Origin: Aureisphaera galaxeae
Lineage (GTDB): Bacteria; Bacteroidota; Bacteroidia; Flavobacteriales; Flavobacteriaceae
DNA: 64,000 bases
Reading direction: 5' to 3'
NCBI RefSeq assembly: GCF_028561275.1
Contig: NZ_JAQQTF010000004.1
Location: 682,001 to 746,000 of the forward strand
Each line of letters opens with the position of its first letter. The first letter of the stretch is position 1. Below are positions 18,453 through 33,785 of this stretch, one piece after another. Both the position numbers and the translations under genes were made by a program. The notes beneath the pieces were generated by a model. That model was not told where the DNA came from, made no database searches, and saw only the letters and a program-made list of their open reading frames with translations.

Positions 18453-19130
18453 ATGAAAGCATTCCTCGTTTGCATATCAATTCTCATTACTAGCTACGTT
18501 GTGGCGCAGAGCCGTTATCAATTTGGCCTATTGCCTTCGGTAAACATCAATAAAAAACTTCCGAACGACTGGAAACTGAATGCCAAGGTAGAATCTCGGC
18601 AAGAATTGAAAAGTGGGTTCTTTGGTGAATCCAATGACTTTCAATATGAGTATTTACAGACAGATATTTCAGGTATCGCGGCTAAGAAAATAGCGGTAGA
18701 TAAATCGTTAGCAGGAGGGTATCTTATCCGACTTCGTGAAAAGGAGGTGTTGCACAGGTTCATTCAACAATTTATTATCGTAAAGGGGTATCACGGTCTA
18801 CGATTGGCACATAGATTTGCGACCGATGAGACCTTTCAGAAAGACGGGGATACTGAAGTCCGATTGCGTTATCGGCTTTCCTCTTTAATTCCGTTGAGCG
18901 GACAATCGGTAGACCCCAAGGAATTTTATGTGAAGGTAAATCATGAATACCTGAATGCTTGGGAAGGGAAGGATCATGATTTGGAAGTTCGTTTGGTTCC
19001 CCACATTGGTTATAACATTTCAGAATCGAGTAAATTGGAGTTGGGATTAGATTACCGATTGGATTCTTTTATAGACTCGAGCCCTAGACATCGGTTTTGG
19101 ACAGCCATTAATTGGTACATGTCTATCTAA
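18453..19130 (+). CDS. DUF2490 family outer-membrane protein
   Basis: About 225 residues. Signal peptide MKAFLVCISILITSYVVAQ, then amphipathic beta strands with family features (KLPNDWKLNAKVESRQEL, RFIQQFIIVKGYHGLRLAHR, DTEVRLRYRLSS, LELGLDYRLD) and a C-terminal aromatic strand ending TAINWYMSI, as in small outer-membrane barrels. The ATG at 18453 is used; a TTG four codons upstream would overlap the preceding gene. Function of the family unknown. The tight spacing suggests that it and the preceding gene act together. Confidence 0.75.
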   Translation: MKAFLVCISILITSYVVAQSRYQFGLLPSVNINKKLPNDWKLNAKVESRQELKSGFFGESNDFQYEYLQTDISGIAAKKIAVDKSLAGGYLIRLREKEVLHRFIQQFIIVKGYHGLRLAHRFATDETFQKDGDTEVRLRYRLSSLIPLSGQSVDPKEFYVKVNHEYLNAWEGKDHDLEVRLVPHIGYNISESSKLELGLDYRLDSFIDSSPRHRFWTAINWYMSI

Positions 19131-19229
19131 GGATGTCGATAATTCATTCGTTTTGTTTTTCGCTATAGGTATGGAATCTAATGTGTACATTTACCCGGCC
19201 TTCTCATCTATTGAGATTCCATTGCTTCT

Positions 19230-20372
19230 ATGAAGAAAATCTATTTTCCCGGTTTAAACGGTGTCCGCTTTATTGCGGCTTTTTTGGTAATGGTAGATCA
19301 TACAGAGCTTTTTAAGTATAGATTCGGACATACCACGCTTTGGGCCAATTCGTATAGTTCTTTTCTAGGAGCATCTGGGGTGACCATCTTTTTTGTGCTT
19401 AGTGGCTTTCTTATCACATATTTACTTTTGACTGAGAAAGAGGCACAGCCCATTAATATCAAACATTTCTATATACGCAGGATATTAAGGATTTGGCCAC
19501 TATATTATTTTATCGTTGCGCTATGTTTTTTTGTAGTTCCGCATTTGGGTTTTTTTGAGGTTCCTGGGTATGTCACCGGAACCGATCAATTTGGAGAACG
19601 TTTATTTTTGTTTTCGGCCCTATTGGCTAATGTGGCCTTTGTGTATTATCCTGTTGTAGCCTTTGCTAACATTCTATGGTCAGTAGCAGTAGAAGAACAA
19701 TTTTACCTCTTTTGGCCTCATGTAATAAAGCGAACAAAACAACTTTTGCATGTTTTTTTAATCCTAATCTTGGTGTATCTGGTTATAAAATTGAGCGTAT
19801 ACTTTTGGGATTCAAATCATAAGTTAAACGCTGTAATTTTTCGGACAAGATTTTCTTCAATGATTATTGGAGCCATAGGAGCATATATGGTGTTTCGTAA
19901 GAGTTCGGTATTGCGCTGGGTGTACCATTGGAGTTTTCAACTCATCACAATAGGTGCTTTTGTGATTCTTATGGGAAGAATGATCCGAAATGAGTATTTC
20001 GATCTAGTGGGAAATGAGGTTTTTTCTTTGGTAGTATGTTTACTTATTGTGAATATAGCCACCAACAAAAAAACTGTATTGAAATTGGAAAACGCGGTGT
20101 TCAATTATCTTGGCAAGATATCATACGGCTTATATGTCTATCATTTGTTTGCGGTTACCCTAGTCGTAAAATTTATAGCCCCTGCATTAGGATTAAAGAA
20201 GTTGAGTAGTGTTGCCGAATACCCAATCGTTATTGGTTCTGTATTGATCATTACCGTAGCCATTAGTCATCTTTCCTACTTTTACTTTGAGAAACCCATT
20301 CTAAGAAAGAAGATAAAATTCTCCTCCATCTTAAGTGGAGATTTGGTAGAGAGATCATCCAGCAAGACCTAA
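19230..20372 (+). CDS. Acyltransferase 3 (OafA/YrhL-type) membrane protein
   Basis: 380 residues, about ten membrane helices. The opening FPGLNGVRFIAAFLVMVDHT carries the catalytic-type R-F-x-A and H of acyltransferase 3 family enzymes, followed by VTIFFVLSGFLITYLLL and YIRRILRIWPLYYF and SVAVEEQFYLFWP. Such enzymes O-acylate surface polysaccharide or lipopolysaccharide from the inner membrane. It has no SGNH domain. Confidence 0.92.
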   Translation: MKKIYFPGLNGVRFIAAFLVMVDHTELFKYRFGHTTLWANSYSSFLGASGVTIFFVLSGFLITYLLLTEKEAQPINIKHFYIRRILRIWPLYYFIVALCFFVVPHLGFFEVPGYVTGTDQFGERLFLFSALLANVAFVYYPVVAFANILWSVAVEEQFYLFWPHVIKRTKQLLHVFLILILVYLVIKLSVYFWDSNHKLNAVIFRTRFSSMIIGAIGAYMVFRKSSVLRWVYHWSFQLITIGAFVILMGRMIRNEYFDLVGNEVFSLVVCLLIVNIATNKKTVLKLENAVFNYLGKISYGLYVYHLFAVTLVVKFIAPALGLKKLSSVAEYPIVIGSVLIITVAISHLSYFYFEKPILRKKIKFSSILSGDLVERSSSKT

Positions 20373-20542
20373 AAGTCTGTTTTCTGAATCATTTACAGGG
20401 TTTTGCATACGTATTTTCCTCATCTATACATGCGTGAAAACACCCCATTTTCAGTTTTATATTTTATTTAGCGAATCCCTAACAGTAGGCAACCTTCAGA
20501 AAACGTATTTTTAGATGTAAGAACAAACCTACATTTTTAATT

Positions 20543-21748
20543 ATGAAGACCATCCACCTGCTGCTTGCAATCACGACTTTATTGTATATCCCCGGTTCTC
20601 ATGCCCAAACAAAGGAAGGCGACGAAGCTATTACCATTGGGAAAAAGATCAAGTTCTATTCCTCCATCCTTGGAGAGGAGAAAGAACTCTATATATCCCT
20701 TCCGCATAAATATGAAGAGCGCGTTCATAGCTATCCTGTGATTTATGCTTTGGAGGCCGAATTCCTGTTCGAGCCCGTGCACACTGTGGCCAAGGTTATG
20801 GCGGCTCGTAGTAAAATGCCTCAATCCATAGTTGTAGGACTAGCAAACGTGGACTACCAAAAGCGTTATGAAATGAACTATGAACGCTGGGGAGGCAAAC
20901 CGGATCTGTACTTAGAGTTTTTCAGTAAGGAATTAATTCCCTTTGTTGAAGAGAACTACAGGGCTAATTCGCACCGCACGATCATCGGTTTATCTCCGAC
21001 TAATGGATTGCTATACCATACATTTTTGAATCAGCCCGAAGTATTCAATGGTTACATTGCCTTGGCAGCCCAATTGGAATGGGAGCGGGTAGAGGGAGTA
21101 GACCTCATGGGAGAGCTCATGGAAAAATATGAGGATCTAACCTTCCCGAAAACCACCCTTTACTTAGGCCGGGCCGATGGGGATATGAAAGGTGATATCG
21201 ATGCGGCTCGTGCGTTCGATGCGGCCTCGCAAAAGCTGGCGCTTGGTAAACGAAGAAATGTCACTTGTAAGATTGACGTGCTTCAGAACGATGAACACTA
21301 TTTAATGTGTTTGCAGGGAGTGAAAAACGGTTTGGCCACCATTTACCCCAATTATTTATGGAAAAGCCCCAGTTGGAAAGGATGGGATAAGAGTACGAAT
21401 TATGCAGAAGAATACTATAAGGGCTATTATGAAGATCTATCCGAACGCTATGGTTTCGATATCTTTCCGGTAGAAGATGGACATGCTTACGCCTACCATC
21501 TTACTGGGCGCATACAGAACGCAAAGCAATGGGGTACGAACCAGCAGGTGATCGACCTTGCGGAATTGGCACTGACGTATTATCCTAATTCGGCCCAGCT
21601 TAGAATGACCTTGGCAGAAGCCTATAAAGCCAATGGAAACATCGATTTGGCCCTGAAAACTGGGGAGAAGGCCATGGAGATGGCAGGCATGTACCATAGT
21701 GGTGATCTGGAAATGTATTCCCAAAGAATGGACGCCTTAAAACAATGA
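20543..21748 (+). CDS. Exported putative esterase (PF00756-like) with TPR-like tail
   Basis: 401 residues, signal peptide ending at SHAQ. The alpha/beta-hydrolase core resembles enterochelin-esterase-like proteins (ELYISLPHKYEERVHSYPVI, VGLANVDYQKR, ELIPFVEENYRAN). The nucleophile elbow is IIGLSPTNGLL, where the usual second glycine after Ser is Thr. A histidine is found in NDEHYLMCLQG. Residues 325-400 form two TPR-like helix pairs. Substrate unknown; likely periplasmic. Confidence 0.8.
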   Translation: MKTIHLLLAITTLLYIPGSHAQTKEGDEAITIGKKIKFYSSILGEEKELYISLPHKYEERVHSYPVIYALEAEFLFEPVHTVAKVMAARSKMPQSIVVGLANVDYQKRYEMNYERWGGKPDLYLEFFSKELIPFVEENYRANSHRTIIGLSPTNGLLYHTFLNQPEVFNGYIALAAQLEWERVEGVDLMGELMEKYEDLTFPKTTLYLGRADGDMKGDIDAARAFDAASQKLALGKRRNVTCKIDVLQNDEHYLMCLQGVKNGLATIYPNYLWKSPSWKGWDKSTNYAEEYYKGYYEDLSERYGFDIFPVEDGHAYAYHLTGRIQNAKQWGTNQQVIDLAELALTYYPNSAQLRMTLAEAYKANGNIDLALKTGEKAMEMAGMYHSGDLEMYSQRMDALKQ

Positions 21749-21754
21749 TCTCCA

Positions 21755-21835
21755 GCCATCTAATAATCCAACAATCCAAGAATCTAATATTCTAATGGTC
21801 CAACCATCCAAATATCTAAACACCCAACCAACAGA
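21755..21835 (+). repeat. Degenerate CCATCTAA/ATCCAA-word repeat
   Basis: About eight imperfect 9-10-base words (CCATCTAATA, ATCCAACA, ATCCAAGA, ATCTAATAT, and so on) follow the esterase stop. Nothing coding is visible in 21749-22026. Confidence 0.65.
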
Positions 21836-21847
21836 TAATCAAATCGC

Positions 21848-21876
21848 TACGGTAAAACCATAGTGTTTTAACGCTA
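21848..21876 (+). promoter_or_regulatory. CGGnAAAACCnTA element upstream of the hybrid kinase
   Basis: TACGGTAAAACCATAGTG followed by TTTTAACGCTAA resembles the block at 24507-24537 ahead of the oxidoreductase operon (CGGGAAAACCGTAACTCAAG then TTAAACCGTAAT). Two similar sites at two neighbouring promoters suggest a shared regulator; which one is not known. Confidence 0.35.
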
Positions 21877-22026
21877 AATAGCTAGTTTTGAATCCTTTGA
21901 AAAATTAAATGACTGATAGTCAGTTAATTATAAATTTATATTTTTCCTTTTTTTAGTTAAAAAAATGTATATTTAAACATCCCCATGTAAGTTTTTTCCC
22001 TCAAGAATAGTCAAAGCAATTTTTCT

Positions 22027-24249
22027 ATGGTTCAGGACACTATGTCGAAAGCGGAAATACTTCAATTACTCAATGACGCTTACAAGAAGCGCGGAGAGGA
22101 ATTGAATACCAGTATTAAACTCACTAAAAAGGCACTAGAAGCTAGCAGAAAGCTTCAGGATTCTAGCCTCATTGGTAAGAGTTTAACGAAGCTGGCGTTG
22201 TATGCCATGGTAAAGGGGGAGCATGAGAAATCGATTAAACTTTCCACAGAAGCAATCAATTGTTTTAAGTCGGTAGATGATGAGTTGGGCGCAGCAGACG
22301 CCAACTACAGTATTGCCGGGGTGTATTACAAGTCCAACAACTATCATTTGGGCATGTTTCACCTCATTGATTGTCTATCCATTTATAGAAAACACGGAGA
22401 TCATCATAACGAATCCAGAACCCTTAAATCGTTGGGTACGGTATACGAGGTCTTAGGGGATTACGCCAGCGCAAAATCGGTGTATGAAGGTGCGATAGAA
22501 GCTGCTCAGGCCGTGGGGGATAAGAATTTGGAATCGAACGCCTATAACCCCTTATCAGGTATCTTGCTGCGGTATGGTAAAACCCAGGAAGCGATGGATC
22601 TCATTCAGCGTTCTGTGGCGATGAAGCAAGAAACCGGAGATACCCGTGGTTATGCCTTTGCGGTATACGGAAGGGGGAAGGTATATCTGAAAATGCAGCG
22701 TTACGAAGAAGCCGAACGCGATTTTCTCGAAGCAGTAGGAATTCATAAATCAGTTGGGGATAGTTTTGGTATAGGCATGGCCTATACCAAAATGGGCCAT
22801 TTGTATGTTGCCACTGGCAAAATAAAGAAGGCCAAGAAGTATCTTAAAATAGTAGTAAAACAGAGCGAAGAGCGAAATCAGTCCTTGCTTAAATACAAGA
22901 GCAATCACTTCTTGTACGAAATTTACAAGGGCGAAGGAAAGAAAAGAAAAGCCCTAAAGTACTTGGAGAAGTATTTGGATGAGAAGGACGCGACGGTGAA
23001 TTCTCAAATTCTGAAAGTAATCCACAATTACGAACGTATTTCCCGCATGCGTTCTTTGGAAAAAGAAGCCAGTCTGGCCCGTGAAAAAGCACTGTTTAAA
23101 CGAAAGCAAGAACAGATGGAAGAGGCCACGAAGATGAAACAAGAGTTCCTTTCCAGTATTAGTCATGAAATTAGGACCCCGCTTAATGCCGTGACCAGTA
23201 TTATTTCATTGCTCGAGGAACGCTCTGGTGAAAAAGACAAGAAGCTACTTACGTCCCTTCGGTTTTCGTCCAAAAACTTGCTGCGAATCATCAATGACAT
23301 ACTGGATTTTTCCAAATTGGATTCCAACAAGATGAAGTTGGAAACCCGCTCTGTTCGATTTAAAGACTTCATACACAACATTCACAGTACCTATCATGGA
23401 TTGGCCATGGAGAAAGGACTGCTTTTTCGGGTAAATATAGCCCCGGAAGTTTCCAAGTACTATGAGATCGACGAAACCAAAATGTTTCAGATCTTAGGTA
23501 ATTTAGTGAGCAATGCCATTAAGTATACTGAGAAGGGCAGTGTCGAAATGTCCATAGATTTGGTAGAAGCCCAAGGAAAAACCGATGTAATTCACTTTTC
23601 GGTAACCGATACCGGTATAGGTATTCCTTCTAAGGAAAAAGAACGACTGTTCGAAAGCTTTTATATGCCTCCATCCGTCACTACGCGTAAGGAAGGTGGA
23701 ACCGGATTAGGTTTGGCCATCGTTAAAAAGTTAGTACAATTGCATGACAGCTGTATTGGCTGTGAAAGTACCCCTGGTATAGGTTCCCGTTTCAATTTCT
23801 CCCTCAATTTAAAACGTAGTAAGCCGCCATTACAGACTGACAAAACCCTGTTTAAGCAATTAAAAGGCCGTGTAGCTATTGTGGCTGAAGACAATGAGAT
23901 CAATGCCATGGTAATGCGCGAATTACTGAAGAAGTGGGGCGTAACCCTAAAACGCGTTAATAACGGTAAACAAGCCGTTGATATGGCCAAGGAAGAAAAG
24001 GTGGACTTTATCCTGATGGATATCCACATGCCCGTGATGAATGGCTATGACGCCACCCAAATGATTAGAAACACAGACAATCCCAATCGGACCACGCCCA
24101 TTTTCGCTCTTACTGCAGACAGCACCGTTTTGAATGAAGAAACCGGTTCGGGTTATTTTAGTGGTGTTTTACTGAAACCCATTGAAATAGATCGCCTATT
24201 CGAAGCTTTGGTCTATGCACAACGCATAAAACCAGAGGTGCTTTCATAG
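22027..24249 (+). CDS. Soluble TPR-containing hybrid sensor histidine kinase
   Basis: 740 residues without signal peptide or membrane segment. Residues 1-320 are six to seven tetratricopeptide repeats (for example GAADANYSIAGVYYKSNNYH), 330-375 a coiled coil, then HisKA with His380 in FLSSISHEIRTPLNAV, HATPase (LVSNAIKYTEKG, DTGIGIPSKEKERLFE, GGTGLGLAIVKKL) and a C-terminal receiver with the phosphoacceptor in FILMDIHMPVMNGYDAT. No DNA-binding domain, so an external partner is needed. TPR input suggests cytosolic protein-protein sensing. It precedes the oxidoreductase operon after a 328-base spacer. Confidence 0.92.
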   Translation: MVQDTMSKAEILQLLNDAYKKRGEELNTSIKLTKKALEASRKLQDSSLIGKSLTKLALYAMVKGEHEKSIKLSTEAINCFKSVDDELGAADANYSIAGVYYKSNNYHLGMFHLIDCLSIYRKHGDHHNESRTLKSLGTVYEVLGDYASAKSVYEGAIEAAQAVGDKNLESNAYNPLSGILLRYGKTQEAMDLIQRSVAMKQETGDTRGYAFAVYGRGKVYLKMQRYEEAERDFLEAVGIHKSVGDSFGIGMAYTKMGHLYVATGKIKKAKKYLKIVVKQSEERNQSLLKYKSNHFLYEIYKGEGKKRKALKYLEKYLDEKDATVNSQILKVIHNYERISRMRSLEKEASLAREKALFKRKQEQMEEATKMKQEFLSSISHEIRTPLNAVTSIISLLEERSGEKDKKLLTSLRFSSKNLLRIINDILDFSKLDSNKMKLETRSVRFKDFIHNIHSTYHGLAMEKGLLFRVNIAPEVSKYYEIDETKMFQILGNLVSNAIKYTEKGSVEMSIDLVEAQGKTDVIHFSVTDTGIGIPSKEKERLFESFYMPPSVTTRKEGGTGLGLAIVKKLVQLHDSCIGCESTPGIGSRFNFSLNLKRSKPPLQTDKTLFKQLKGRVAIVAEDNEINAMVMRELLKKWGVTLKRVNNGKQAVDMAKEEKVDFILMDIHMPVMNGYDATQMIRNTDNPNRTTPIFALTADSTVLNEETGSGYFSGVLLKPIEIDRLFEALVYAQRIKPEVLS

Positions 24250-24330
24250 TCGCTCCTTCTTTCCATGTCAATTATTTTTACAAAACCCTCCATTTGGTAA
24301 TATTTTTGTCATTGTATTAGTCTATGGACT

Positions 24331-24365
24331 TTAGTCGTTAGTCGTTAGTCGTTAGTCGATGGTCG
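24331..24365 (+). repeat. TTAGTCG tandem repeat
   Basis: Four exact TTAGTCG units (24331-24358) and one variant ATGGTCG. Confidence 0.85.
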
Positions 24366-24372
24366 ATAGCCT

Positions 24373-24470
24373 ATCATCAATCTACAATCATCAATCTACA
24401 ATCATCAATCTACAATCATCAATCTACAATCATCAATCTACAATCATCAATCTACAATCATCAATCTACA
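24373..24470 (+). repeat. Seven perfect 14-bp tandem repeats
   Basis: ATCATCAATCTACA is repeated seven times without a mismatch, 98 bases in all. Together with the TTAGTCG repeat and the element at 24507 it fills the 328-base gap between the hybrid kinase and the oxidoreductase operon; no gene is seen there. Perfect identity suggests recent expansion by slippage. Confidence 0.95.
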
Positions 24471-24506
24471 ATAGTCCAACTATCCAAAAGTCAAACACTC
24501 CAAATT

Positions 24507-24537
24507 GCGGGAAAACCGTAACTCAAGTTAAACCGTA
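24507..24537 (+). promoter_or_regulatory. CGGnAAAACCnTA element upstream of the oxidoreductase operon
   Basis: GCGGGAAAACCGTAA is followed by a second half GTTAAACCGTAAT; both halves contain AAACCGTAA as direct repeats 16 bases apart. It lies 40 bases before the first operon gene and resembles the block at 21848. Confidence 0.4.
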
Positions 24538-24577
24538 ATAGGTAAATTAGTAGAAACTAACTAATACTTTAGATTTC

Positions 24578-25042
24578 ATGAACGACTCCCAAGAAATTGA
24601 CTATTTCTACGGGTTATCTGTACTCCTTACTGGTTATGATGAAGTCGTCCTTTACGCTAGTGGGCAAGGGGAGACCTATTTTAAAACCGTACGCCGCATA
24701 TTGGGCAAACAACTTATGACCCAATTGCTTTCTGAGTTTCAGGTGATCCTAGAACAGTCCAAAGGAAATTCCAAGAAACTTCATACCCTTCTTAAAAAGG
24801 AAATGTTGAAGGACGCCAAATGGGGCCCTGTATGCCGAAATATCATTCAGTTGTGGTATATGGGCAATTGGTACGAAATGCCCACCGAATGGCAGGAGAA
24901 TTATGTAAGCAGCACCGAAGACACCACCCATGTGGTTTCCGCCAGTAGCTATATAGAAGGATTGGTATGGAAGGCCATGGGCCAACATCCAAAATCTGCA
25001 AAACAACCCGGTTACCATACCTGGGCCGTTCCACCCAATTAA
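24578..25042 (+). CDS. Small subunit of a sugar-dehydrogenase-type flavoenzyme (FAD-SLDH-like)
   Basis: 154 residues. The pattern DYFYGLSVLLTGYDEVVLYA, then a helical middle, IIQLWYMGNWYEMP, YIEGLVWKAMG and a C-terminal PGYHTWAVPPN matches the small chain of membrane-bound fructose/sorbitol dehydrogenases (compare LSAFATG, IIRAWYSG, NYW endings in FdhS-type proteins). Unlike those it has no Tat signal, so the complex is probably cytosolic. The GMC flavoprotein follows after 9 bases. Assignment is by remembered family pattern. Confidence 0.75.
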   Translation: MNDSQEIDYFYGLSVLLTGYDEVVLYASGQGETYFKTVRRILGKQLMTQLLSEFQVILEQSKGNSKKLHTLLKKEMLKDAKWGPVCRNIIQLWYMGNWYEMPTEWQENYVSSTEDTTHVVSASSYIEGLVWKAMGQHPKSAKQPGYHTWAVPPN

Positions 25043-25051
25043 ATTACAATC

Positions 25052-26911
25052 ATGAAAGAAGGAAAAGAATTCGATGTAGTCATCGTAGGTGCCGGTATTA
25101 CAGGTGCCATCATCGCCAAGGAATTGAGTGCCCGGTGTAAAGGTCTGGATATCCTCATTCTGGAAGCAGGAACGGGAAAAAGTTCCGATTTCGATGATTA
25201 CGAAAAATACAACGATCAATATTACAATGCACTGGCCAAAACGCCTAACTCACCCTATACAGATTCACCCTACGCACCCTCCCCCAGTGTATTAGACATC
25301 ACCCAAATAAAGGACAATGAGCCCGATACCAACGGATACTTTGTGCAATACGGTCCCTTTCCGTTTTTAAGTAATTATAATCGGAATGTAGGGGGAACGA
25401 CTTTGCACTGGTTGGGAACCACTTTACGTATGTGCCCGAATGACTTTAAAATGAAAACCCTTTACGGGCATGGGGTTGATTGGCCCATTGGTTATGATGA
25501 CCTAAAGCCCTATTACCGCCGGGCCGAATATGAAATTGGCGTTTCCGCGGAGGTAAATGAGCAGGAAATTTTGGGGATTACCTTCGATAAAGGATATGTA
25601 TTCCCCATGCATAAAATCCCGCAGAGTTATTTGGATATGTACATGACTAAAAACATGAAAGGACTCACTTTTAAGGATGATGGCGTTACCTATCCCGTAA
25701 AGGTGATTAGTACACCCCAGGGAAGAAACGGTATGCCCAATCCCAAATACAAAAACTTTGATACTAGAGAGAAGGGCTTTATGCCCGTTGGAGCCGTAGG
25801 CAATCCCGATTTAGGACAACGCTGTGAAGGAAACTCCAACTGCGTGCCTATCTGTCCGGTACAAGCTAAGTACAATGCCTTGAAGACCTTGCACGATGCC
25901 TTGCAAAACACCAAGTCCAAGGTGACCTTGATCAATCAGTCGCCTGTGTCTACCATAGAAATAGACCCAAAGACCAAGAAGGTAAGCAAGTTGCATTATA
26001 AGACCTTTAAAACGTCCAAGAACGGCGTTCGTACCGTGATTAATAACCATACCGTTCGCGGAAAGATCGTGGTATTGGCCGCCAATGCGGTTGAAAATGC
26101 CAAGATATTACTGGCTTCTGATGCGTGCACACGAAGTAATCAAGTAGGGAAGAACCTCATGGACCATTTAGTGATGTTGACTTGGGGGTATATGCCGGAT
26201 GATATAGGGGCCTATCGCGGACCTGGTTCTACTTCCGGAATGCCATTGATGCGCGATGGAAGCTTTAGAAAGAACAGATCTGCCTTCCGGGTCGAAATTG
26301 GAAATTGGGGCTGGAACTGGCCTGCCAATACGCCTGAAAGTACCTTGCAGGATGCTGTGGCCGATGGACTTTACGGAAAGGACCTGATCGATAGAATTAA
26401 AAAAGAAACCAGCCGACAGTTCCGAATCGGTTGGGAAATGGAGCAGGTACCTTCCGATAAAAATTACGTCACCATTGATGAAAAATACAAGGATGAGTTG
26501 GGGAACTACCGTCCCGTGATTCATTATACCATGAACGATTATGAAAAACGTGGTGCTTTAGTAGCTTCCAAGTTATCTGAAAAAGTATTCGAAAAGCTGA
26601 AGGTAACCCCGGCCACCGATTGGCAGGACACGGCTCCCGGTTATTTTGAATACGAATACGAAGAAGACGGAAAGAAAAAGACCTTTAAATCGGTCGTAAA
26701 TGGAGCAGGTCATGTGGTAGGTTGCCACCGAATGGGCGATGATCCCAACACTTCTGTGGTGGATAGCAACCAAAGGGCGCACGATCACAAGAACTTATTT
26801 GTCGCGGGTTGTGGAAGCTTTCCGACCTTAGCGACTTCGAATCCAACCTTGACCATGGCGGCCTTGGCGTATCGCACGGCCGATGAAATTGTAAAGGAAT
26901 TTACCTCTTAA
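25052..26911 (+). CDS. GMC-family FAD-dependent oxidoreductase, large subunit
   Basis: 619 residues. FAD-binding motif VVIVGAGITGAIIAKEL at the N-terminus, NVGGTTLHWLGTTLRM, the cysteine group CEGNSNCVPIC near residue 260 found in flavoprotein subunits of gluconate and fructose dehydrogenases, and the C-terminal GAGHVVGCHRMGDDP with LFVAGCGSFPTLATSNPTLT. The His in the C-terminal block is the usual catalytic base. No signal peptide. Substrate unknown: probably an alcohol or sugar hydroxyl. It forms an operon with the small subunit and the ferritin-like gene (13-base gap). Confidence 0.92.
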   Translation: MKEGKEFDVVIVGAGITGAIIAKELSARCKGLDILILEAGTGKSSDFDDYEKYNDQYYNALAKTPNSPYTDSPYAPSPSVLDITQIKDNEPDTNGYFVQYGPFPFLSNYNRNVGGTTLHWLGTTLRMCPNDFKMKTLYGHGVDWPIGYDDLKPYYRRAEYEIGVSAEVNEQEILGITFDKGYVFPMHKIPQSYLDMYMTKNMKGLTFKDDGVTYPVKVISTPQGRNGMPNPKYKNFDTREKGFMPVGAVGNPDLGQRCEGNSNCVPICPVQAKYNALKTLHDALQNTKSKVTLINQSPVSTIEIDPKTKKVSKLHYKTFKTSKNGVRTVINNHTVRGKIVVLAANAVENAKILLASDACTRSNQVGKNLMDHLVMLTWGYMPDDIGAYRGPGSTSGMPLMRDGSFRKNRSAFRVEIGNWGWNWPANTPESTLQDAVADGLYGKDLIDRIKKETSRQFRIGWEMEQVPSDKNYVTIDEKYKDELGNYRPVIHYTMNDYEKRGALVASKLSEKVFEKLKVTPATDWQDTAPGYFEYEYEEDGKKKTFKSVVNGAGHVVGCHRMGDDPNTSVVDSNQRAHDHKNLFVAGCGSFPTLATSNPTLTMAALAYRTADEIVKEFTS

Positions 26912-26924
26912 ATCACACCCAATT

Positions 26925-28094
26925 ATGTTAGATCAAAAAAACCTTCCATACCACGAACGTTTTGTTCAGCCCACGGCCAAGGAACAAAAAGTAGAGGCCA
27001 CTTTGGAGAAGAACAAAATGCTTCGCTCCCTTATGTCGGTTTCCTTGCAACAGGATACCCTGGCCGATTTACACGAACACCTTCGGGTAGCGATGATGTT
27101 GGAGCTTTCCACCATTCCTCCCTATCTATGTGCTTTGTATTCCATTATGAAGGGTGACATGACCGATCCTAACTACAAAGAAGAATACGGCGACAATGCG
27201 GAAGCCGCTGCCTTAATCCGTTCCGTCATGATGGAAGAGATGCTACATTTCACTTTGGCGGGCAATATTTTAAATGCCGTAGGAGGAGAGATGAAGATCA
27301 ATCACAAGGAGTACGTACCCGAGTATCCTACGGTACTGCCCGATAGTGCTGGGAAGTTTCAAGTACACCTTAGTAAGTTCGATAAAGCGGCCATTCGTAC
27401 ATTTTTACGGATTGAACAGCCCACCCCTCCCGAAACGAAGCCCAAATTAGAAGGCTATACCACCATTGGACAGTTTTATCATGCGATAGAGGAGTTGATG
27501 AAGAAGTTGGAAAAGGAAGCCAAGAAGAAAAAGAAGACCATTTTTACAGGTGACCGTAAGTTACAGATCGATGATACCTATTACTACGGCGGTGGTGGTA
27601 AGATATTGGAAGTGCGAAACCTAACCACCGCTTTAGATGCCATTGAAGAGATTTTGGAGCAGGGAGAAGGTTCGGAAACCACGATTTACGACAATGACGA
27701 TGAGTTTGGGCAGATCCGTGAATTGGCGCATTATTTTAAGTTTAATGAGATTTATGAAGCACAGCGCTATGCGCATTGTCAGACCGATCCCAAGGATCCA
27801 CCAGAAGGCACCAAGATGGACATTCGGTATGACAAGGTCTACAATATGGGGATCGATCCTAAAACCGAAGACTTCGTTACGGACGAGCTAAAGGCCTTAT
27901 CGCATGAGTTCAATCTCGAGTACCGTAAGCTGTTGGATCTATTGCAGAGTGCCTTTCAGGGCCAACAGGAAGATTTTCTAGAAGCCGTAGGTGTTATGTA
28001 CAAGCTTCGCTATAAAGCCGTTGCCCTTATGCGTAATCCCATCCCTGGAAAACGAATAAATGCGGGGCCTACGTTTGAGTTTGTTGAAAAATGA
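26925..28094 (+). CDS. Ferritin-like protein of the VioB/RebD iminophenyl-pyruvate dimer synthase type
   Basis: 389 residues. The first half matches the ferritin-like domain of VioB and RebD: DLHEHLRVAMMLELSTIPPY followed by LCALYSI, and VMMEEMLHFTLAGNILNAVGG, giving an E...ExxH style helix bundle, with further candidate ligands at HKEYVPEYP. The rest carries a lysine-rich insert and NEIYEAQRYAHCQ. In violacein and rebeccamycin synthesis such proteins couple imines made by a flavin amino-acid oxidase; here the partner is a GMC enzyme. It stands where a cytochrome c subunit is found in related dehydrogenases. Confidence 0.8.
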   Translation: MLDQKNLPYHERFVQPTAKEQKVEATLEKNKMLRSLMSVSLQQDTLADLHEHLRVAMMLELSTIPPYLCALYSIMKGDMTDPNYKEEYGDNAEAAALIRSVMMEEMLHFTLAGNILNAVGGEMKINHKEYVPEYPTVLPDSAGKFQVHLSKFDKAAIRTFLRIEQPTPPETKPKLEGYTTIGQFYHAIEELMKKLEKEAKKKKKTIFTGDRKLQIDDTYYYGGGGKILEVRNLTTALDAIEEILEQGEGSETTIYDNDDEFGQIRELAHYFKFNEIYEAQRYAHCQTDPKDPPEGTKMDIRYDKVYNMGIDPKTEDFVTDELKALSHEFNLEYRKLLDLLQSAFQGQQEDFLEAVGVMYKLRYKAVALMRNPIPGKRINAGPTFEFVEK

Positions 28095-28136
28095 AGTTCA
28101 TAGGCTGGTTAGAAGTCAATTTAAATAAAAAAATAA

Positions 28137-29018
28137 ATGAAATTAATATCGACATCAGCATTAGCGAAAGAAAGAGGAATTGATTCTAAGCAATTGTTTC
28201 AGGATTTAAAATCTCGCGGATGGATATACAAAAAAGATGATCAGTGGAATTTGACTAAAGAAGGAAAAATGGCTGGAGGAGAAATGAAGTACAATCCTAA
28301 ATATGGTGAATATGTGGTATGGCCCAACAACATGGACTTAAATAAAGAAATTCGTTCCAACGAAACACTCAGCTCTACAAAAATTGGACAGGAATTTGGA
28401 ATATCCGCCCAAAGAACAAACGTAATATTGGCTGAACTTGGCTGGATTGAAAAGTCAAACATTGGAGGTTGGGAACTGACAAAATATGGAAAGAGAAATG
28501 GTGGATTTGAGATGGAAGCTCAAAACGGGTCCCCTTACGTAATTTGGGATAAACGAATTTTGCAGAATAAAAGCGTGTTAAATTCTATTGACGCCGCAAC
28601 AGGGAAAAGTTATGATGATTCAGCAATGAATAGTGCAAAACCTGTCTATGAAACCGATGAATTTAGGAAAAAGCATGAGGCAAAATATAGAACACAGGAT
28701 GGCCATAGAGTTAGAAGTCGTGCTGAAGCAATGATTGATGACTACTTGTATAGCAATGGTGTGGCTCATGCTTATGAAAGACGACTTCCGGGAATAGATG
28801 AAGAAGTAATATCAGATTTTTATATTCCAGCGGGTAAAGTTTTTATTGAGTTCTGGGGAATGGAAGACAATGAAAAGTATAAAGAACGAAAAAAGAGGAA
28901 GCTTGAAATCTACGCTGATAATAACTTCAATTTGATCGAAATGAATGACAAGGACATTGAGGCGATTGACGACGTGTTGCCTCGAAAACTGAAAAAGTTC
29001 GGTGTAAATATTATTTAG
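28137..29018 (+). CDS. Two winged-helix repeats fused to a PD-(D/E)XK nuclease-like domain
   Basis: 293 residues, AT-rich codons. Residues 1-60 and 75-140 are two similar DNA-binding-type modules (ALAKERGIDSKQLFQDLKSR with W..KKDDQWNLTKEGK, and KIGQEFGISAQRTNVILAEL with WELTKYGKRNGG), like phage antirepressor C-terminal domains. Residues 170-293 look like a restriction-endonuclease fold: RVRSRAEAMIDDYLYSNGVA, EEVISDFYIPAGKVFIEFWG, then YADNNFNLIEM; candidate metal residues are the Glu of RSRAE, Asp of SDF and Glu of IEFWG. Role unknown, possibly defence or repair. First gene of the accessory stretch. Confidence 0.7.
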   Translation: MKLISTSALAKERGIDSKQLFQDLKSRGWIYKKDDQWNLTKEGKMAGGEMKYNPKYGEYVVWPNNMDLNKEIRSNETLSSTKIGQEFGISAQRTNVILAELGWIEKSNIGGWELTKYGKRNGGFEMEAQNGSPYVIWDKRILQNKSVLNSIDAATGKSYDDSAMNSAKPVYETDEFRKKHEAKYRTQDGHRVRSRAEAMIDDYLYSNGVAHAYERRLPGIDEEVISDFYIPAGKVFIEFWGMEDNEKYKERKKRKLEIYADNNFNLIEMNDKDIEAIDDVLPRKLKKFGVNII

Positions 29019-29070
29019 AATATCCAATTGGCTACCAGAGACTAACTTTATATCGTAACTCTCTTTTTTC

Positions 29071-29090
29071 TACTTTTATAAACAAAATCT
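29071..29090 (+). promoter_or_regulatory. TACTTTTATA..AACAAAA leader element, copy 1
   Basis: TACTTTTATAAACAAAATCT, a -7-like element plus initial transcript, is almost repeated at 29648-29668 before the next gene. Confidence 0.4.
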
Positions 29091-29102
29091 TTCAATCAGA
29101 GC

Positions 29103-29585
29103 TTGAAAAAAGTCATAGTCATTGGAATTCTGTTTATGGGCTTGGTTAGTATGGCCCAAGAGAGTGATTCTGAATCTAGAGCAAAAAACGTCTATTTGGA
29201 GCTACTAAGCCATACTCCAAAGAGCTTTAAAATAGATCGAGAGAATAAACCTTTAAGCCAACTTCTTGAGGCTGATCTTAATTCCATATGGAAATTGAAG
29301 ACAGCTTATGAATTGAAAGATAGATTAAACGATCATGAAATTAATTGGCTGGAAAAGGAAATTAATCAAATGGCCGTTTCGTTTTTTTTGGAAGGAAAAC
29401 CTATCATTCTCCAGAGTGTTGGAGGGTATTCAGGTTGTCCGGAAGAACTATTACATACTGAAATCAGGAACGAAGTGAACGTTACGATTATAAGCTTGTG
29501 CCAAGGCGGTTGTATCGTTAATAGCGATATGGAAGATTTTATTAAGATATTCAATAATCGGACGGATAAATTAATATCCAATTGA
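29103..29585 (+). CDS. Small secreted protein, unrecognised
   Basis: 160 residues beginning at TTG with a clear signal peptide (KKVIVIGILFMGLVSMAQ). The mature protein is helical and charged, then has two cysteine-containing segments, GGYSGCPEELLHT and IISLCQGGCIVNSDMED. No family recognised. TTG is used because no ATG precedes the signal peptide in frame. Confidence 0.6.
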   Translation: MKKVIVIGILFMGLVSMAQESDSESRAKNVYLELLSHTPKSFKIDRENKPLSQLLEADLNSIWKLKTAYELKDRLNDHEINWLEKEINQMAVSFFLEGKPIILQSVGGYSGCPEELLHTEIRNEVNVTIISLCQGGCIVNSDMEDFIKIFNNRTDKLISN

Positions 29586-29647
29586 AAAACGTGACGTCTT
29601 CCATTCCCCCGCTAAGGCAGGACTCCGTCGGGTGACCTCCTTTTCAC

Positions 29648-29668
29648 TACTTTTATATAAACAAAACT
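29648..29668 (+). promoter_or_regulatory. TACTTTTATA..AACAAAA leader element, copy 2
   Basis: TACTTTTATATAAACAAAAC, nearly identical to 29071-29090. Between the two genes, 29605-29636 is GC-rich with CCCCCG/CGGG arms that could fold as a hairpin. Confidence 0.4.
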
Positions 29669-29681
29669 ATGGGTAATGTAA

Positions 29682-30227
29682 ATGGAGTCCGAAGACATCG
29701 ACATAAATGCAAAGCATTTCATCGCTTCCGTTAGGTATAATAAAAGTCAACCCGAAGATTTTGGATTAACAAAAGTGAAGGGGAAAGAACATTATATCGA
29801 CACGGAAGGGAATTTATGGCAGAACGAATATCTATGGGATTCTGGATGGGGAAATGAATATGGATTTATAAAATTACCCGAGCCTAATTTCGAACAGCTA
29901 TGGACGTTATTGACTAAGTCTAAGATAAAGGAGAATGTACTGGGAGCGGCCGAACTACTCAATGGATATCCCAAAGAGCTTAAGGATAAACTTCAGGAGC
30001 TCTTCAAAAATCATAAGAGTATTGACCGTGATCTTACCAAGAGACTTGCGCATTTGGAACTATTAAACCATGTTACAAATCATTCAGAAACCCACGGGAA
30101 AAAATACGAAGAGGTGAACGAAGATTTTCAAGTATGGAAAAAACTGAAAGACGATTTTGATAGATTGAAAACCGATAGTTTTATTCAGCAATTTAAGAAG
30201 ACCATTACTAGCAAAAGAGAATCATAA
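29682..30227 (+). CDS. Hypothetical cytosolic protein
   Basis: 181 residues, no signal peptide. An N-terminal beta-rich part (KGKEHYIDTEGNLWQNEYLW) and a helical C-terminal half with DRDLTKRLAHLELLNHV. Not recognised. Low-GC codon use like its neighbours. Confidence 0.55.
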   Translation: MESEDIDINAKHFIASVRYNKSQPEDFGLTKVKGKEHYIDTEGNLWQNEYLWDSGWGNEYGFIKLPEPNFEQLWTLLTKSKIKENVLGAAELLNGYPKELKDKLQELFKNHKSIDRDLTKRLAHLELLNHVTNHSETHGKKYEEVNEDFQVWKKLKDDFDRLKTDSFIQQFKKTITSKRES

Positions 30228-30276
30228 GGCAAGGGCCTAGTATTGAATGGTATTATCAATGAAATAGTGAAATAAG

Positions 30277-30876
30277 GTGAACTTTGATTTAGAAGACAAA
30301 CTATCAGAATATGTAAAGAAAGGCGACTTGGATACCGCCATTGAAATAGCAGAATCTGAATTAAAAAAAGTTTCAAAGACAGACTTTCATGCACTAATTG
30401 GCAAGGATTTACTCCATCTAGCGCCCGAATTAAGCACGTTCATTTCAAACTTTTACTCCGCGGTTAAACTTAGATATGCAATTAAGTTTTCAAAAAAACT
30501 AAAAGCATTGTACTGTGAAATGAATGGATTCACAATAAACTATGACAGATGGTTTGTAGATATCTTCGCATATAGTGATATAGATGAGAACGACTATGAT
30601 TGGCTGGCAGATTATGACTTCTTGTCGAAACGGGATATGACTATTAAAGGGTTTGAGAGCTTTCAAAAAGTCTATGAAGACGTTCATAAATACCAGAAGT
30701 TCGATATCCCAGAAATTGAGCAAGCTTACGACATTGCCGAATTGATTATCATTTTGAGGCTTCAGGAATTATTTCGGAAAACTTATAAAAAGGCCGAAAG
30801 GAAGGGATTGAAATGGAGCTCTATTCCTATGTTTGTCACAGCACACGACTATGAAATGATGTATCGTATCAATTAA
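30277..30876 (+). CDS. Hypothetical cytosolic helical protein
   Basis: 199 residues from a GTG start. Begins with a TPR-like helix pair (SEYVKKGDLDTAIEIAESEL) and continues helical with many aromatics (DYDWLADYDFLSKRDMTIKG). No family recognised. The start is the only one that gives the whole first helix. Confidence 0.55.
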   Translation: MNFDLEDKLSEYVKKGDLDTAIEIAESELKKVSKTDFHALIGKDLLHLAPELSTFISNFYSAVKLRYAIKFSKKLKALYCEMNGFTINYDRWFVDIFAYSDIDENDYDWLADYDFLSKRDMTIKGFESFQKVYEDVHKYQKFDIPEIEQAYDIAELIIILRLQELFRKTYKKAERKGLKWSSIPMFVTAHDYEMMYRIN

Positions 30877-31020
30877 AATGATTCGCTCTGCTATATTCCC
30901 AATGGGTGACGTTCATTATATCATTTAATTCATGAAACAAGACTTCTTTTAATAAACTTGATTCGCTTCATCTTACTAAAAGAGGGATTAATTGCTATCT
31001 TAAGAAGCAAAATATACGCT

Positions 31021-31833
31021 ATGAGAAAAATTGTTTATGGTTTACTTCTATCTGTTACGATATTAAGTTGTACATCCGATGACGGGGCTAACGATTCTGA
31101 AGACAACTACGCTTCTTTTTTATCTGACACCTCCATAGAAACCGATATCGATTTCATGCCCGAGGAAACATACGAGGTGTTTGATGGGACTCCACAAGTT
31201 CCGTCCCTAAAATTGAAACTGGTTACTACAGAAATTTACCCCTGTGTGAATTATACGCTAGCCACAACCACTTTTGTTAGGGACACCGAGTTGATTGTTC
31301 GGTTCGATGAGGTGATAGAGCCCGTTTTTTGTTTAACGGCAATAGGTCCCGCAGGCGTCTATCTCGATCTACCCGAAGATATAGAGCGCATTACGCTCAT
31401 AAATGGGGAAAGCATAGATAAGTATACCATAGAAACAAATATGGATAAGGTTGAGATACGCCTCATAGAAAGGAATTTTACCAACCTGCTTTTTGAAAAC
31501 ACCTTTCGCCTTCCCGAGAATTCATTCGCCTACGTGTGTGGTACTAATATAGATAATACCCAATTGTATGATGATTTCAAGAATATTTTACTCAGCAATG
31601 CCGCATTGACAGAAATCACCTTTAATGGTGAGGGGAGGATTCCTTATCCCGAGAGTTCTTCGGGGCATGGGGTAGATCATCCTTCCGTGTTTTTTCAATA
31701 TACCGACGAATCGATTTTCGATGAACTGGGAGAAGTGCTTGACGATTTTGCATCACAATATCTTGAAGGGGAAATTGGGGTAACCATGCGTCTCGATAGC
31801 TGGAAAAACAAAAGACATGCAAGTTGGGATTAA
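31021..31833 (+). CDS. Hypothetical lipoprotein
   Basis: About 270 residues. The ATG at 31021 places MRKIVYGLLLSVTILSC at the N-terminus, a good lipoprotein signal; an upstream TTG frame would bury it. The mature part is acidic and beta-rich with a few cysteines (EIYPCVNYTLATTTFVRD, AYVCGTNIDN). Not recognised. Confidence 0.65.
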   Translation: MRKIVYGLLLSVTILSCTSDDGANDSEDNYASFLSDTSIETDIDFMPEETYEVFDGTPQVPSLKLKLVTTEIYPCVNYTLATTTFVRDTELIVRFDEVIEPVFCLTAIGPAGVYLDLPEDIERITLINGESIDKYTIETNMDKVEIRLIERNFTNLLFENTFRLPENSFAYVCGTNIDNTQLYDDFKNILLSNAALTEITFNGEGRIPYPESSSGHGVDHPSVFFQYTDESIFDELGEVLDDFASQYLEGEIGVTMRLDSWKNKRHASWD

Positions 31834-31881
31834 AAAAGAATTTTTCGCCTACCTTACTTTTCCTAAACTCGAAATTCCTTA

Positions 31882-32703
31882 ATGATAACGATTCACCTTA
31901 AACCTTCATTTCATAAGTTCTCAACGATAGTACTACGTGATAACGAGATCGTATGTGAAATTCGCCAAAGGTTTCAAGACCTAACTGAGTTTGAGAAAAA
32001 AGAGGTTCTTACGGCTTCTCAAGATTTGAAATTGAAGGAGCTGAAGGAGTTCAATCAAAAAGCTAAAAAAGAACATTGGTTAGAGAAGAGCGAAATTCCC
32101 AAAGAGGTTTCCGAACAGAAGGCTAGAATCAATGAATTGATCAAAAACATCATCGACAAGCCCATTAAGGACGACAGAATTATTCTCGATGGTATTCAGG
32201 TAGAATGTGTATTACATGAACCCGAGATGCCTCCTCAATTAATCGAGTTTCACTCCCCAGAAGATGGGACAAGGGAAATTGAGATCATTAAAAGCTTGTT
32301 TGTGATGCTGAATCAGAGTTTTACATCGGAACCCGTGGTGAATTATTTGGAATTGGTTCAAGGCTATTTTGGTATGGGCCAACAATGGAGAATCACAAAT
32401 GAAGATCCGCTAACCATGCGATTGTTTGGGAGTTTAAGCATATATGAAAAGGAAGGGATCATAGAATTGTTCAACTCTTTAGAATCGAACAAAGTGCTTA
32501 TTCTAGACCTGCGTAATTTGGATGGAATGGGGACCACTTTCCATGAATGCTTTCAAGAACTGATGGGTAGAATGGAAGCGGTGTATTGGCTGGTTTCGGA
32601 GAATGAACTGCTATTAAGGCACTTAGATGAAATAGGAGTATCGAATACATATGTCTTTAAGGATATGGATGTAATCCTTGAAAAAATGAAGAACAGAAAT
32701 TGA
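31882..32703 (+). CDS. Hypothetical protein with STAS-like C-terminus
   Basis: 273 residues, cytosolic. N-terminal unknown region with a long charged helix (residues 40-95). The last 75 residues (GIIELFNSLESNKVLILDLR, then NLDGMGTTFHECFQELMGRM and NTYVFKDMDVILEKM) follow the beta-alpha pattern of a STAS domain with a Gly-Thr-Thr turn where the phosphorylatable residue would be. This is a fold-level impression. Followed after 3 bases by a cysteine-rich ORF. Confidence 0.55.
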   Translation: MITIHLKPSFHKFSTIVLRDNEIVCEIRQRFQDLTEFEKKEVLTASQDLKLKELKEFNQKAKKEHWLEKSEIPKEVSEQKARINELIKNIIDKPIKDDRIILDGIQVECVLHEPEMPPQLIEFHSPEDGTREIEIIKSLFVMLNQSFTSEPVVNYLELVQGYFGMGQQWRITNEDPLTMRLFGSLSIYEKEGIIELFNSLESNKVLILDLRNLDGMGTTFHECFQELMGRMEAVYWLVSENELLLRHLDEIGVSNTYVFKDMDVILEKMKNRN

Positions 32704-32706
32704 GAA

Positions 32707-33018
32707 ATGGGGGCAATTAACTGCAAAAAACATGGTAGACAATTGATTATAGAAGTTTGCGAACATGCATACGAAGCGCTTCATTCCAGACAAAAGTTAG
32801 ATTTACTTAAAATTCCAATTCTTAATTTAAGAGTTTGTACGAGTTGTTATGATCAATTTCGTTTTCAGGCAGTACCAGATATAACAATAGAAGACCTTCT
32901 TGAGTTGGATGATGAAGAGGCTGATCGTATTGGTGACTTTGTTCATGGAAAATATGATCAGGTAAATAGAAAGGTCATGTGCGTGGCCTGTTATAATGAA
33001 CTAAAAGAAAAGCATTAA
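32707..33018 (+). CDS. Small cysteine-rich protein, possible zinc ribbon
   Basis: 103 residues with Cys/His clusters in order: CKKHGRQ, VCEHAYE, LRVCTSCYDQF and MCVACYNELKEKH. Two CxxC knuckles about 47 residues apart suggest one zinc site. Stop overlaps the next start (TAATG). Confidence 0.55.
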   Translation: MGAINCKKHGRQLIIEVCEHAYEALHSRQKLDLLKIPILNLRVCTSCYDQFRFQAVPDITIEDLLELDDEEADRIGDFVHGKYDQVNRKVMCVACYNELKEKH

Positions 33019-33785
33019 TGATTCCAGACTTTTTAAAGAAATTTGAATCGGAGTTAAAGAAATACGAAAGAGCCTTTATTCGTATCAACGCAAAACCTAG
33101 AAAGGAAAGCCCTCTAGAGGATAATCTGGATATAATAGACAACAAGTTTTTGGGAAAGCCCTTCTTTCCAAAAGATAAGGAGTATCCTAAGGATGAAAAG
33201 GGCAACCCAATGGTGATGGTGGCTCAATTAAATTTTGAACAAATTCCAGAACTTGAATTCTTTCCGATGGATGGGATTCTTCAACTCTTTTTATCTCCAA
33301 CCGACTGGTATATGAAAGATTCCGCGATCGTGTATCACTCCAAAGAGCAATTAGAGAAGGAACCCATGAATGATTTTTCATTCCTAACCGAAGCTGCCTA
33401 TGAAGAAATGCCCGTATATAAAATCCATCAATTGAGTTTTGAAAAAGCTATCGATAGAGGAGGTTCAGAGGATTCACAATTCGACTTTCTTTTTGATGGC
33501 ATCGATTATTGGGAATACACAGAACGATTGACAGAAGAGCAGGAAAAGGAGTTTAATGCTTATTTCCGTGCCATGGGACATAAGATCGGAGGTTATGCCG
33601 AATTCACACAATCGGATCCTAGAGGCAACAGTAAGGAACAAATGGATGATATTCAGGTGTTACAAATAGATGTGGACGAGCATATCATGTTTGGAGATAG
33701 TGGATTAGGGCATATATTTATAAGCAAGGAAGACCTTATGAATAAAGACTTCTCCAAAGCCTATTTTTACTGGGATTGCTGTTAG
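33018..33785 (+). CDS. DUF1963 / YwqG family protein
   Basis: 255 residues. Recognised by the KFLGKPFFPKDKEYPKDEKG then MVMVAQLNFEQIPELEFFP pattern, the GILQLFLSPTDW strand, GGYAEFTQSDPRG and a C-terminal DSGLGHIFISKEDL. Family members are cytosolic, of unknown function, and often occur in immunity-protein arrays. Translationally coupled to the zinc-ribbon-like ORF. Confidence 0.85.
   Translation: MIPDFLKKFESELKKYERAFIRINAKPRKESPLEDNLDIIDNKFLGKPFFPKDKEYPKDEKGNPMVMVAQLNFEQIPELEFFPMDGILQLFLSPTDWYMKDSAIVYHSKEQLEKEPMNDFSFLTEAAYEEMPVYKIHQLSFEKAIDRGGSEDSQFDFLFDGIDYWEYTERLTEEQEKEFNAYFRAMGHKIGGYAEFTQSDPRGNSKEQMDDIQVLQIDVDEHIMFGDSGLGHIFISKEDLMNKDFSKAYFYWDCC

Follow-up and report, generated by a model that had tools for sequence, protein, structure and literature searches.

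Analysis of a 64,000-nucleotide stretch of the Aureisphaera galaxeae genome (hereafter the window) revealed three adjacent genes on the forward strand, which encode a small protein, a GMC flavoprotein and a ferritin-like protein of family PF12902. The three genes are linked in genomes from seven phyla and are inherited together, and their predicted cofactor ligands are conserved. The reading we favor, with evenly balanced confidence, is a cytoplasmic alcohol or sugar dehydrogenase with flavin adenine dinucleotide (FAD) and a [3Fe-4S] cluster, in which the three proteins form one complex and electrons pass to a diiron subunit and probably then to O2. The three open reading frames (ORFs) fill positions 24578-28094 of the window, with gaps of 9 and 13 bases. 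An earlier note, made from the sequence alone, had described this three-gene layout, a GMC flavoprotein with a CxxxxxCxxxC group and a third protein expected to match PF12902; all three were confirmed.

Relatives of the ferritin-like protein were collected by scanning genome contigs with five ferritin-like query proteins. This gave at least 502 confirmed relatives, and the analysis went on with the best 80. In 53 of these 80, all three genes of the trio stand side by side on one strand, a figure that describes close relatives and not PF12902 overall. The 53 trios are distributed over seven phyla (Bacteroidota 28, Pseudomonadota 17, Cyanobacteriota 2, Acidobacteriota 2, Actinomycetota 2, Planctomycetota 1 and Gemmatimonadota 1), and several of the genomes that carry them are metagenome bins. 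This bears out the co-occurrence outside the window's own genome that the earlier note had set as a test. The window, five further loci and the 53 trios make up 59 loci, among which two pairs (L033/L124 and L048/L081; L numbers denote loci) are apparently the same loci counted twice. Two gene orders are observed. The order of the window, small-GMC-ferritin, is found in 40 of the 59 loci, and GMC-ferritin-small in 19. In one draft genome, that of Jiella flava (L127), the ferritin-like and small proteins form a single ORF. No ATG, GTG or TTG is present at this junction in the 32 in-frame codons examined, which reach into the small domain. In one of the 53 trios (L096, Crocinitomicaceae) the GMC gene is in pieces. 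A second GMC-PF12902 pair lies beside it (L096:8623-11946).

Co-inheritance was analyzed by two approaches. The inter-locus distance matrices of the three proteins correlate with r = 0.84-0.90 (56 loci; 2,000 permutations, maximum 0.15). L096, L127 and L035 are excluded from these matrices, and the apparent duplicate loci are kept. A profile of the trio-type GMC proteins was searched against 395 Bacteroidota genomes, the window's own included, with three candidates scored per genome. Some GMC match is found in 319 genomes. Scores above 290 bits are found in four only, the window genome, G376, G266 and G447 (G numbers denote genomes), all of which carry the trio; the next best score is 114 bits. 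PF12902 is matched in 15 of the 395 genomes, again including the window's own, and 13 of these matches are over the cut-off. Within this sample, PF12902 extends beyond the trio and the trio-type GMC subfamily is confined to it.

The distribution of the trio is patchy. In the 4.59 Mb assembly of its own genome PF12902 is present once. No match to it is found in the eight other genomes of the same genus that were searched (completeness 76-99%), and three of the 60 genomes of that search have one, the window's own included. Among the matches listed, the trio closest to that of the window belongs to the cyanobacterium Xenococcus sp. PCC 7305, with identities of 60% (small), 73% (GMC) and 67% (ferritin-like), and the GMC proteins of the two are sisters with support of 100/100. 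This kinship and the patchy distribution suggest that the module moved as a whole from one phylum to another.

The GMC protein of the window contains both GMC domains (Pfam GMC_oxred_C, 7.8e-23; GMC_oxred_N, 5.1e-8). Its closest solved relatives are the FAD glucose dehydrogenase (GDH; 6a2u, 1.5e-67) and the large subunit of fructose dehydrogenase (FDH; 7w2j, 5.7e-57). Weaker relatives in the Protein Data Bank (PDB) include pyranose oxidases. H554 and N597, the likely catalytic pair of this GMC enzyme, are each kept in all 53 aligned trio proteins (the window and 52 loci, L096 left out). C258, C264 and C268 are invariant in the same 53 proteins. They align with Cys212, Cys218 and Cys222 of the Burkholderia cepacia enzyme (BcGDH), which are the ligands of its [3Fe-4S] cluster according to the excerpt of its report (PMC6719666). 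The counterpart of BcGDH His105, for which that excerpt reports density joining it to FAD (PMC6719666), is H119, likewise invariant in the 53 proteins.

The small protein is distantly homologous to the FDH small subunit, and no signal was found on it. Its identity is based on the PF12318 matches of its relatives, the family profile and the fold. PF12318 is matched at E<=0.1 in 27 of 53 small proteins, the window's included, with a best value of 4.7e-7. A profile of the small-protein family finds the FDH small subunit 7w2j_B at E=0.01. The alignment starts at query residue 4 and chain residue 48, and the N-terminal stretch of the chain has no counterpart. The AlphaFold2 (AF2) model has a predicted local distance difference test score (pLDDT) of 87.0, and its top three PDB matches in Foldseek are the FDH small subunits 8jej_B, 8k6j_B and 9jqa_B (match probabilities 1.00, 0.99 and 0.93), with E-values of merely 0.05-0.15. 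The earlier note had proposed an FDH-like small subunit. This stands through the relatives and the fold; the window protein itself lies below the PF12318 cut-off (E=0.043, 14.5 bits; cut-off 24.2). Matches of the small protein to TAL effectors add up from many single repeats that score about 0-4 bits apiece, and were dismissed as a repeat-scoring artefact.

The third protein is a clear member of PF12902 (3.5e-62, 210.6 bits; cut-off 22.3). Its HSCB_C, TrmD and ribosomal-type matches are under the cut-off and were rejected. The AF2 model is of high quality (pLDDT 90.7; predicted template modeling score 0.90). One good match was found for it in Foldseek, the Caulobacter protein 3hl1 (E 2.3e-9; TM 0.73, normalized by target length), and ordinary ferritins match at E about 1. 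Six residues, E60, E105, H108, E164, E248 and H269, are invariant in all 76 aligned ferritin-like relatives and in 12 of 12 proteins of a mixed set. The fusion protein L127 was left out of the small and ferritin-like alignments, and L086, L087, L125 and L128 out of the latter. The same six positions are kept, by alignment, in 3hl1 and in two Pseudoalteromonas VioB proteins. Diiron carboxylate sites are made up of four Glu and two His, and the four Glu and two His here are likely to form a dimetal site. The earlier note had called this protein VioB-type. It shares the PF12902 domain and the six putative metal ligands with VioB, and its apparent kinship is limited to these. Full membership is ruled out by the VioB model TIGR04492 (24.5 bits against a cut-off of 1250) and by an alignment restricted to residues 598-840 of the about 1,010 in VioB. 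The chemistry of VioB is therefore not transferable to it.

Known complexes of this type use a cytochrome c and a Tat (twin-arginine translocation) signal, and, in line with the earlier note, neither was found with the trio. In the DNA around the 59 trio loci, some of it short, no ORF of at least 80 residues has the more than two CxxCH motifs of a tri-heme cytochrome c. Some CxxCH ORF of this length is present at 11 of the 59, two of which count zero under a stricter pattern. No ORF with more than two such motifs is found in window stretch 19001-33500; the cytochrome search covered the DNA of the loci and not the rest of the genomes. The Tat pattern was searched in the first 50 residues. It is found in none of 53 small proteins, in one of 76 ferritin-like proteins (L131, whose N-terminus was not flagged as hydrophobic) and in one of 53 GMC proteins (L072, within the Rossmann fold). 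With no Tat signal and PF12902 in place of the cytochrome, electrons would therefore leave by another route.

Other contexts of PF12902 favor a redox role, since flavoproteins or iron-sulfur carriers repeatedly accompany the domain. Eight of 22 loci with a ferritin-like gene only have two CDGSH motifs in the same chain, and 14 are without such a motif. Five of the CDGSH-bearing chains were scanned against Pfam. All five contain zf-CDGSH, and Fer4_19 is over the cut-off in four and under it in the fifth. These CDGSH-PF12902 proteins of 570-610 residues (L067, L078, L080, L085, L086, L087, L097 and L118) are candidate multi-cluster ferritin-like proteins. A second lineage from the window's family (L031, L046 and L047) has a two-gene GMC-PF12902 pairing in which the small gene was not found. 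Its GMC protein, another one like those of GDH and FDH, has a C-x5-C-x2-C group, and that of L046 is nearest to 6a2u (1e-45). Fungal PF12902 genes are located near lodA/lodB-type genes, according to the excerpt of PMC4417212. Among 24 wide-flank PF12902 stretches from unselected genome samples, a count that leaves out two sub-cut-off places (L016 and L017), five contain the trio and three a GMC-PF12902 pair without the small gene. Two literature leads were rejected. The GMC and ferritin-like genes of the CauloKO biofilm screen, CC_1278 and CC_1732, are not neighbors (excerpt of PMC13001252), and in the excerpt of PMC6515984 'ferritin-like' occurs in a reference title only.

We propose that the three proteins assemble as one cytoplasmic enzyme complex. 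The GMC subunit would use its FAD to oxidize an alcohol group on a molecule resembling a sugar or cyclitol, and the small subunit would hold and stabilize the GMC subunit, as in FDH and GDH. Electrons would exit the FAD singly via a surface [3Fe-4S] cluster. The PF12902 protein would be the next carrier, at the point where known complexes use a membrane cytochrome c; the CDGSH and Fer4_19 domains in the same chain tie PF12902 to iron-sulfur carriers elsewhere too. Its four-Glu/two-His set is predicted to bind two irons (or iron and manganese). From this site the electrons may pass to O2, which would become either water or an activated oxygen species able to oxidize the same substrate further. 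As a more tentative proposal, for which our confidence is clearly below even, the trio would represent a new, soluble dehydrogenase class, in which a GMC enzyme acting on sugars or cyclitols is wired via [3Fe-4S] to an O2-activating diiron ferritin-like subunit.

Several observations weigh against this proposal. The [3Fe-4S] ligands are also present in the cytochrome-linked GDH and FDH relatives, and alone are no proof of a new acceptor. In the ferritin-like protein, E248 and H269 are outside the classic ExxH pattern of helix 4. Residue 266, which would complete ExxH here, is E in 65 of the 76 relatives. The ferritin-like gene occurs without GMC in 22 of the 80 loci and must have other roles there, and in 16 of the 24 wide-flank stretches nothing related to the window's GMC protein is found at E<=1e-3. 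In five of the 80 loci GMC and ferritin-like genes are present and the small gene was not found; the contig start truncates four of these, and the fifth, L058, has a shortened GMC. The distance correlations leave shared ancestry in.

The genes around the trios differ between the two gene orders. Neighbors were recounted at 57 trio loci (one of each apparent duplicate pair dropped) by tblastn at E<=1e-5 with one query per family. In loci of GMC-ferritin-small order, a relative of the IolE protein of L104 is found in 18 of 19, mostly directly after the trio and in some a few kilobases off; in L105 it is a 70-residue piece at the locus end. A second TIM barrel protein is found in 15 of these 19 loci, a glycoside hydrolase family 15 (GH15) relative in 13, a metallo-β-lactamase (MBL)-type protein in 12 and a thiamine pyrophosphate (TPP) enzyme in 12. 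None of the five is found in the 38 loci of small-GMC-ferritin order. Hidden Markov model checks were made on the L104 members only. They support GH15 (4.3e-78), myo-inosose-2 dehydratase (345.7 bits, cut-off 290), AP_endonuc_2 and TPP enzyme domains. The MBL-type protein has no Pfam match, and its name is that of the plasmid annotation.

Ferritin-like relatives are found in 166 of 72,556 plasmid records, 114 of them from Rhizobium. In both Rhizobium bangladeshense and Sinorhizobium meliloti, a plasmid-borne eight-gene cluster is annotated with the order GH15-GMC-ferritin-like-small-iolE-TIM barrel-MBL-TPP enzyme (L164:5527-15396; L165:5553-15715). It looks like a sugar or cyclitol pathway that has yet to be assigned. 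The annotations of the trio genes on these rhizobial plasmids are limited to GMC oxidoreductase, ferritin-like protein and hypothetical protein. In a third plasmid record, with an incomplete gene table, a 432-base GMC feature adjoins the ferritin-like gene and an IS3 transposase lies upstream.

Inositol catabolism proceeds through iolG-iolE-iolD. The GMC-ferritin-small loci share an IolE-like gene with this pathway, pointing to cyclitols or sugars as the substrate of that lineage. They differ from it in that no iolG is annotated beside the trio in the two plasmid clusters, whose gene tables are incomplete. In the IolE-linked clusters, the GMC dehydrogenase may take the place of iolG, and a role in supplying IolE with an inosose or keto-sugar would be in keeping with the cluster. 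Small-GMC-ferritin loci have other neighbors. These are a 300-residue protein without Pfam match (16 of 38), ABM (11), a berberine bridge enzyme (BBE)-type FAD enzyme (8), Dabb (8) and ADC-like relatives (6; the ADC match itself is 27.4 bits, below the cut-off of 29.8). In window stretch 15001-40000, none of ten neighbor-family queries has a match at the same threshold. The window belongs to this lineage, outside the one with IolE-like neighbors. The earlier note had raised the possibility of an oxidative biosynthetic or iron-dependent system. The GMC-ferritin-small lineage looks like sugar or cyclitol metabolism, and the window's lineage lies partly near other small-molecule genes.

The chief rival to an electron-transfer complex is a pair of sequential enzymes, in which the GMC and small proteins use another acceptor and PF12902 is a separate dimetal oxidase or oxygenase acting on the released product. 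VioB and RebD act in this way on the product of a flavin oxidase. The two VioB proteins with the same domain and six ligands are consistent with such a scheme, as are the ABM-type and ADC-like genes near window-order trios and the fungal lodA/lodB context. However, the fusion partner of PF12902 in Jiella flava is the small subunit and not a catalytic domain, and the invariant [3Fe-4S] ligands are unneeded by a plain flavin oxidase. We consider this rival unlikely, though one to be taken seriously. Alternatively, the GMC protein may be an oxidase that releases H2O2, with PF12902 as a dimetal catalase or peroxidase for its removal. Dimetal ferritin-like catalases and peroxidases exist, and pyranose oxidases are among the weaker relatives of the GMC protein. 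However, conservation of the [3Fe-4S] ligands speaks for a dehydrogenase that works with an electron carrier, and no Mn-catalase or rubrerythrin family is among the three Pfam matches of the ferritin-like ORF listed up to E=1. Peroxide clean-up thus appears improbable.

PF12902 could also lie outside the redox chain, as a factor that supplies iron to the [3Fe-4S] cluster or guards it. The ferritin-like fold would suit such a role, and the PF12902-CDGSH-Fer4_19 fusions could mean iron or iron-sulfur handling. We find this still less probable. The known GDH and FDH complexes with the same cluster are described as having three subunits, none of them a PF12902 protein (for GDH, excerpt of PMC6719666), and the fit of ordinary ferritins to the fold is poor. 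That the three genes are chance neighbors with no functional link is barely credible, being contradicted by the conservation of the trio across seven phyla, the GMC subfamily tied to it and the correlated distances.

Features of the trio, in window coordinates
Feature	Position	Strand	Basis
Small subunit, 154 aa	24578..25042	+	Remote FDH small subunit homologue (PF12318-like); Tat or other signal not found
GMC flavoprotein, 619 aa, GDH/FDH-type catalytic subunit	25052..26911	+	Pfam and PDB relatives, cysteine alignment
Codon of H119, predicted covalent FAD	25406..25408	+	Aligned to BcGDH His105; 53/53 GMC proteins
Codons C258-x5-C264-x3-C268, predicted [3Fe-4S] ligands	25823..25855	+	Aligned to BcGDH Cys212/218/222; 53/53
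Codons H554 to N597, predicted GMC catalytic His/Asn pair	26711..26842	+	Both 53/53
PF12902 ferritin-like protein, 389 aa, proposed third subunit in place of cytochrome c	26925..28094	+	PF12902 3.5e-62; AF2; Foldseek 3hl1
Putative dimetal ligand span E60, E105, H108, E164, E248, H269	27102..27731	+	76/76 and 12/12 alignment conservation

Within the window, G+C content peaks at the trio, with 44.9-45.9% per gene compared to 41.0 +/- 1.9% in 3.5-kb windows. Upstream of it, a short tandem array with a unit like aatctacaatc was seen by eye at 24375-24470, in the gap after a TPR/histidine-kinase-like gene. Downstream, the trio is adjoined by a gene for a 293-residue protein (28137-29018, +), which matches the candidate defense protein PDC-S69 of PADLOC (9.1e-107) and, more weakly, the PDC-S68 and HEAT_CxxC_PD-DEXK models. 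The three trio proteins have no match to the PADLOC anti-phage models at E<=0.01.

No described complex of GMC, PF12902 and small-subunit proteins was found among the matches listed in the open-access literature searched, with subscription papers outside its scope. FDH and GDH complexes are used in direct-electron-transfer biosensors, and the third subunit of FDH is a cytochrome. The third subunit in the solved GDH complex is likewise a cytochrome (excerpt of PMC6719666). If our proposal is correct, the trio would be a natural cytoplasmic counterpart of these complexes in which a ferritin-like protein replaces the cytochrome, and sugar oxidation would be coupled to an iron site in a new way. 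Part of PF12902, a family known mainly via VioB and also via RebD, would thereby gain a function, and a recurring trio of sparsely annotated genes, as on the rhizobial plasmids, would be explained. Under the more tentative proposal of a new dehydrogenase class, substrate oxidation would itself pay for activating O2 and for a second oxidation, and NAD(P)H, ferredoxin and cytochrome would all be dispensable. PF12902 would in that case serve more generally as a module that handles O2, supplied by the iron-sulfur clusters of a GMC partner or of CDGSH or ferredoxin-like domains in the same chain.

The trio can be compared with several known systems. CC_0557 of Caulobacter, the solved PF12902 protein (3hl1), is similar to the trio protein in fold and in the six ligands, with a structural identity of 23%. 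VioB-type proteins (TIGR04492) are alike in the domain and putative ligands and differ in the rest of the chain, outside the segment aligned. Pyranose oxidases and glycoside 3-oxidases, which are not known to have a [3Fe-4S] partner system, are sugar-acting GMC flavoproteins whose C-terminal about 65 residues match the window GMC protein. The excerpt of PMC10646112 describes them as flavo-oxidases that reduce O2 to H2O2. The FDH of Gluconobacter (7w2j/8jej) and the GDH of Burkholderia cepacia (6a2u/8grj) are heterotrimeric FAD-dependent dehydrogenase complexes. The trio shares with them a GMC subunit with C-x5-C-x3-C and the FAD-linked His, and its small subunit resembles that of FDH. Their GMC chains are 544-545 residues long compared to 619 in the window. 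Unlike these complexes, the trio has no Tat signal found and no tri-heme cytochrome c found at the locus, and a PF12902 protein is third. Since the Tat signal and the clustered cytochrome are two defining features of these complexes, the trio is not a member of the group as now defined, yet it may work in the same manner.

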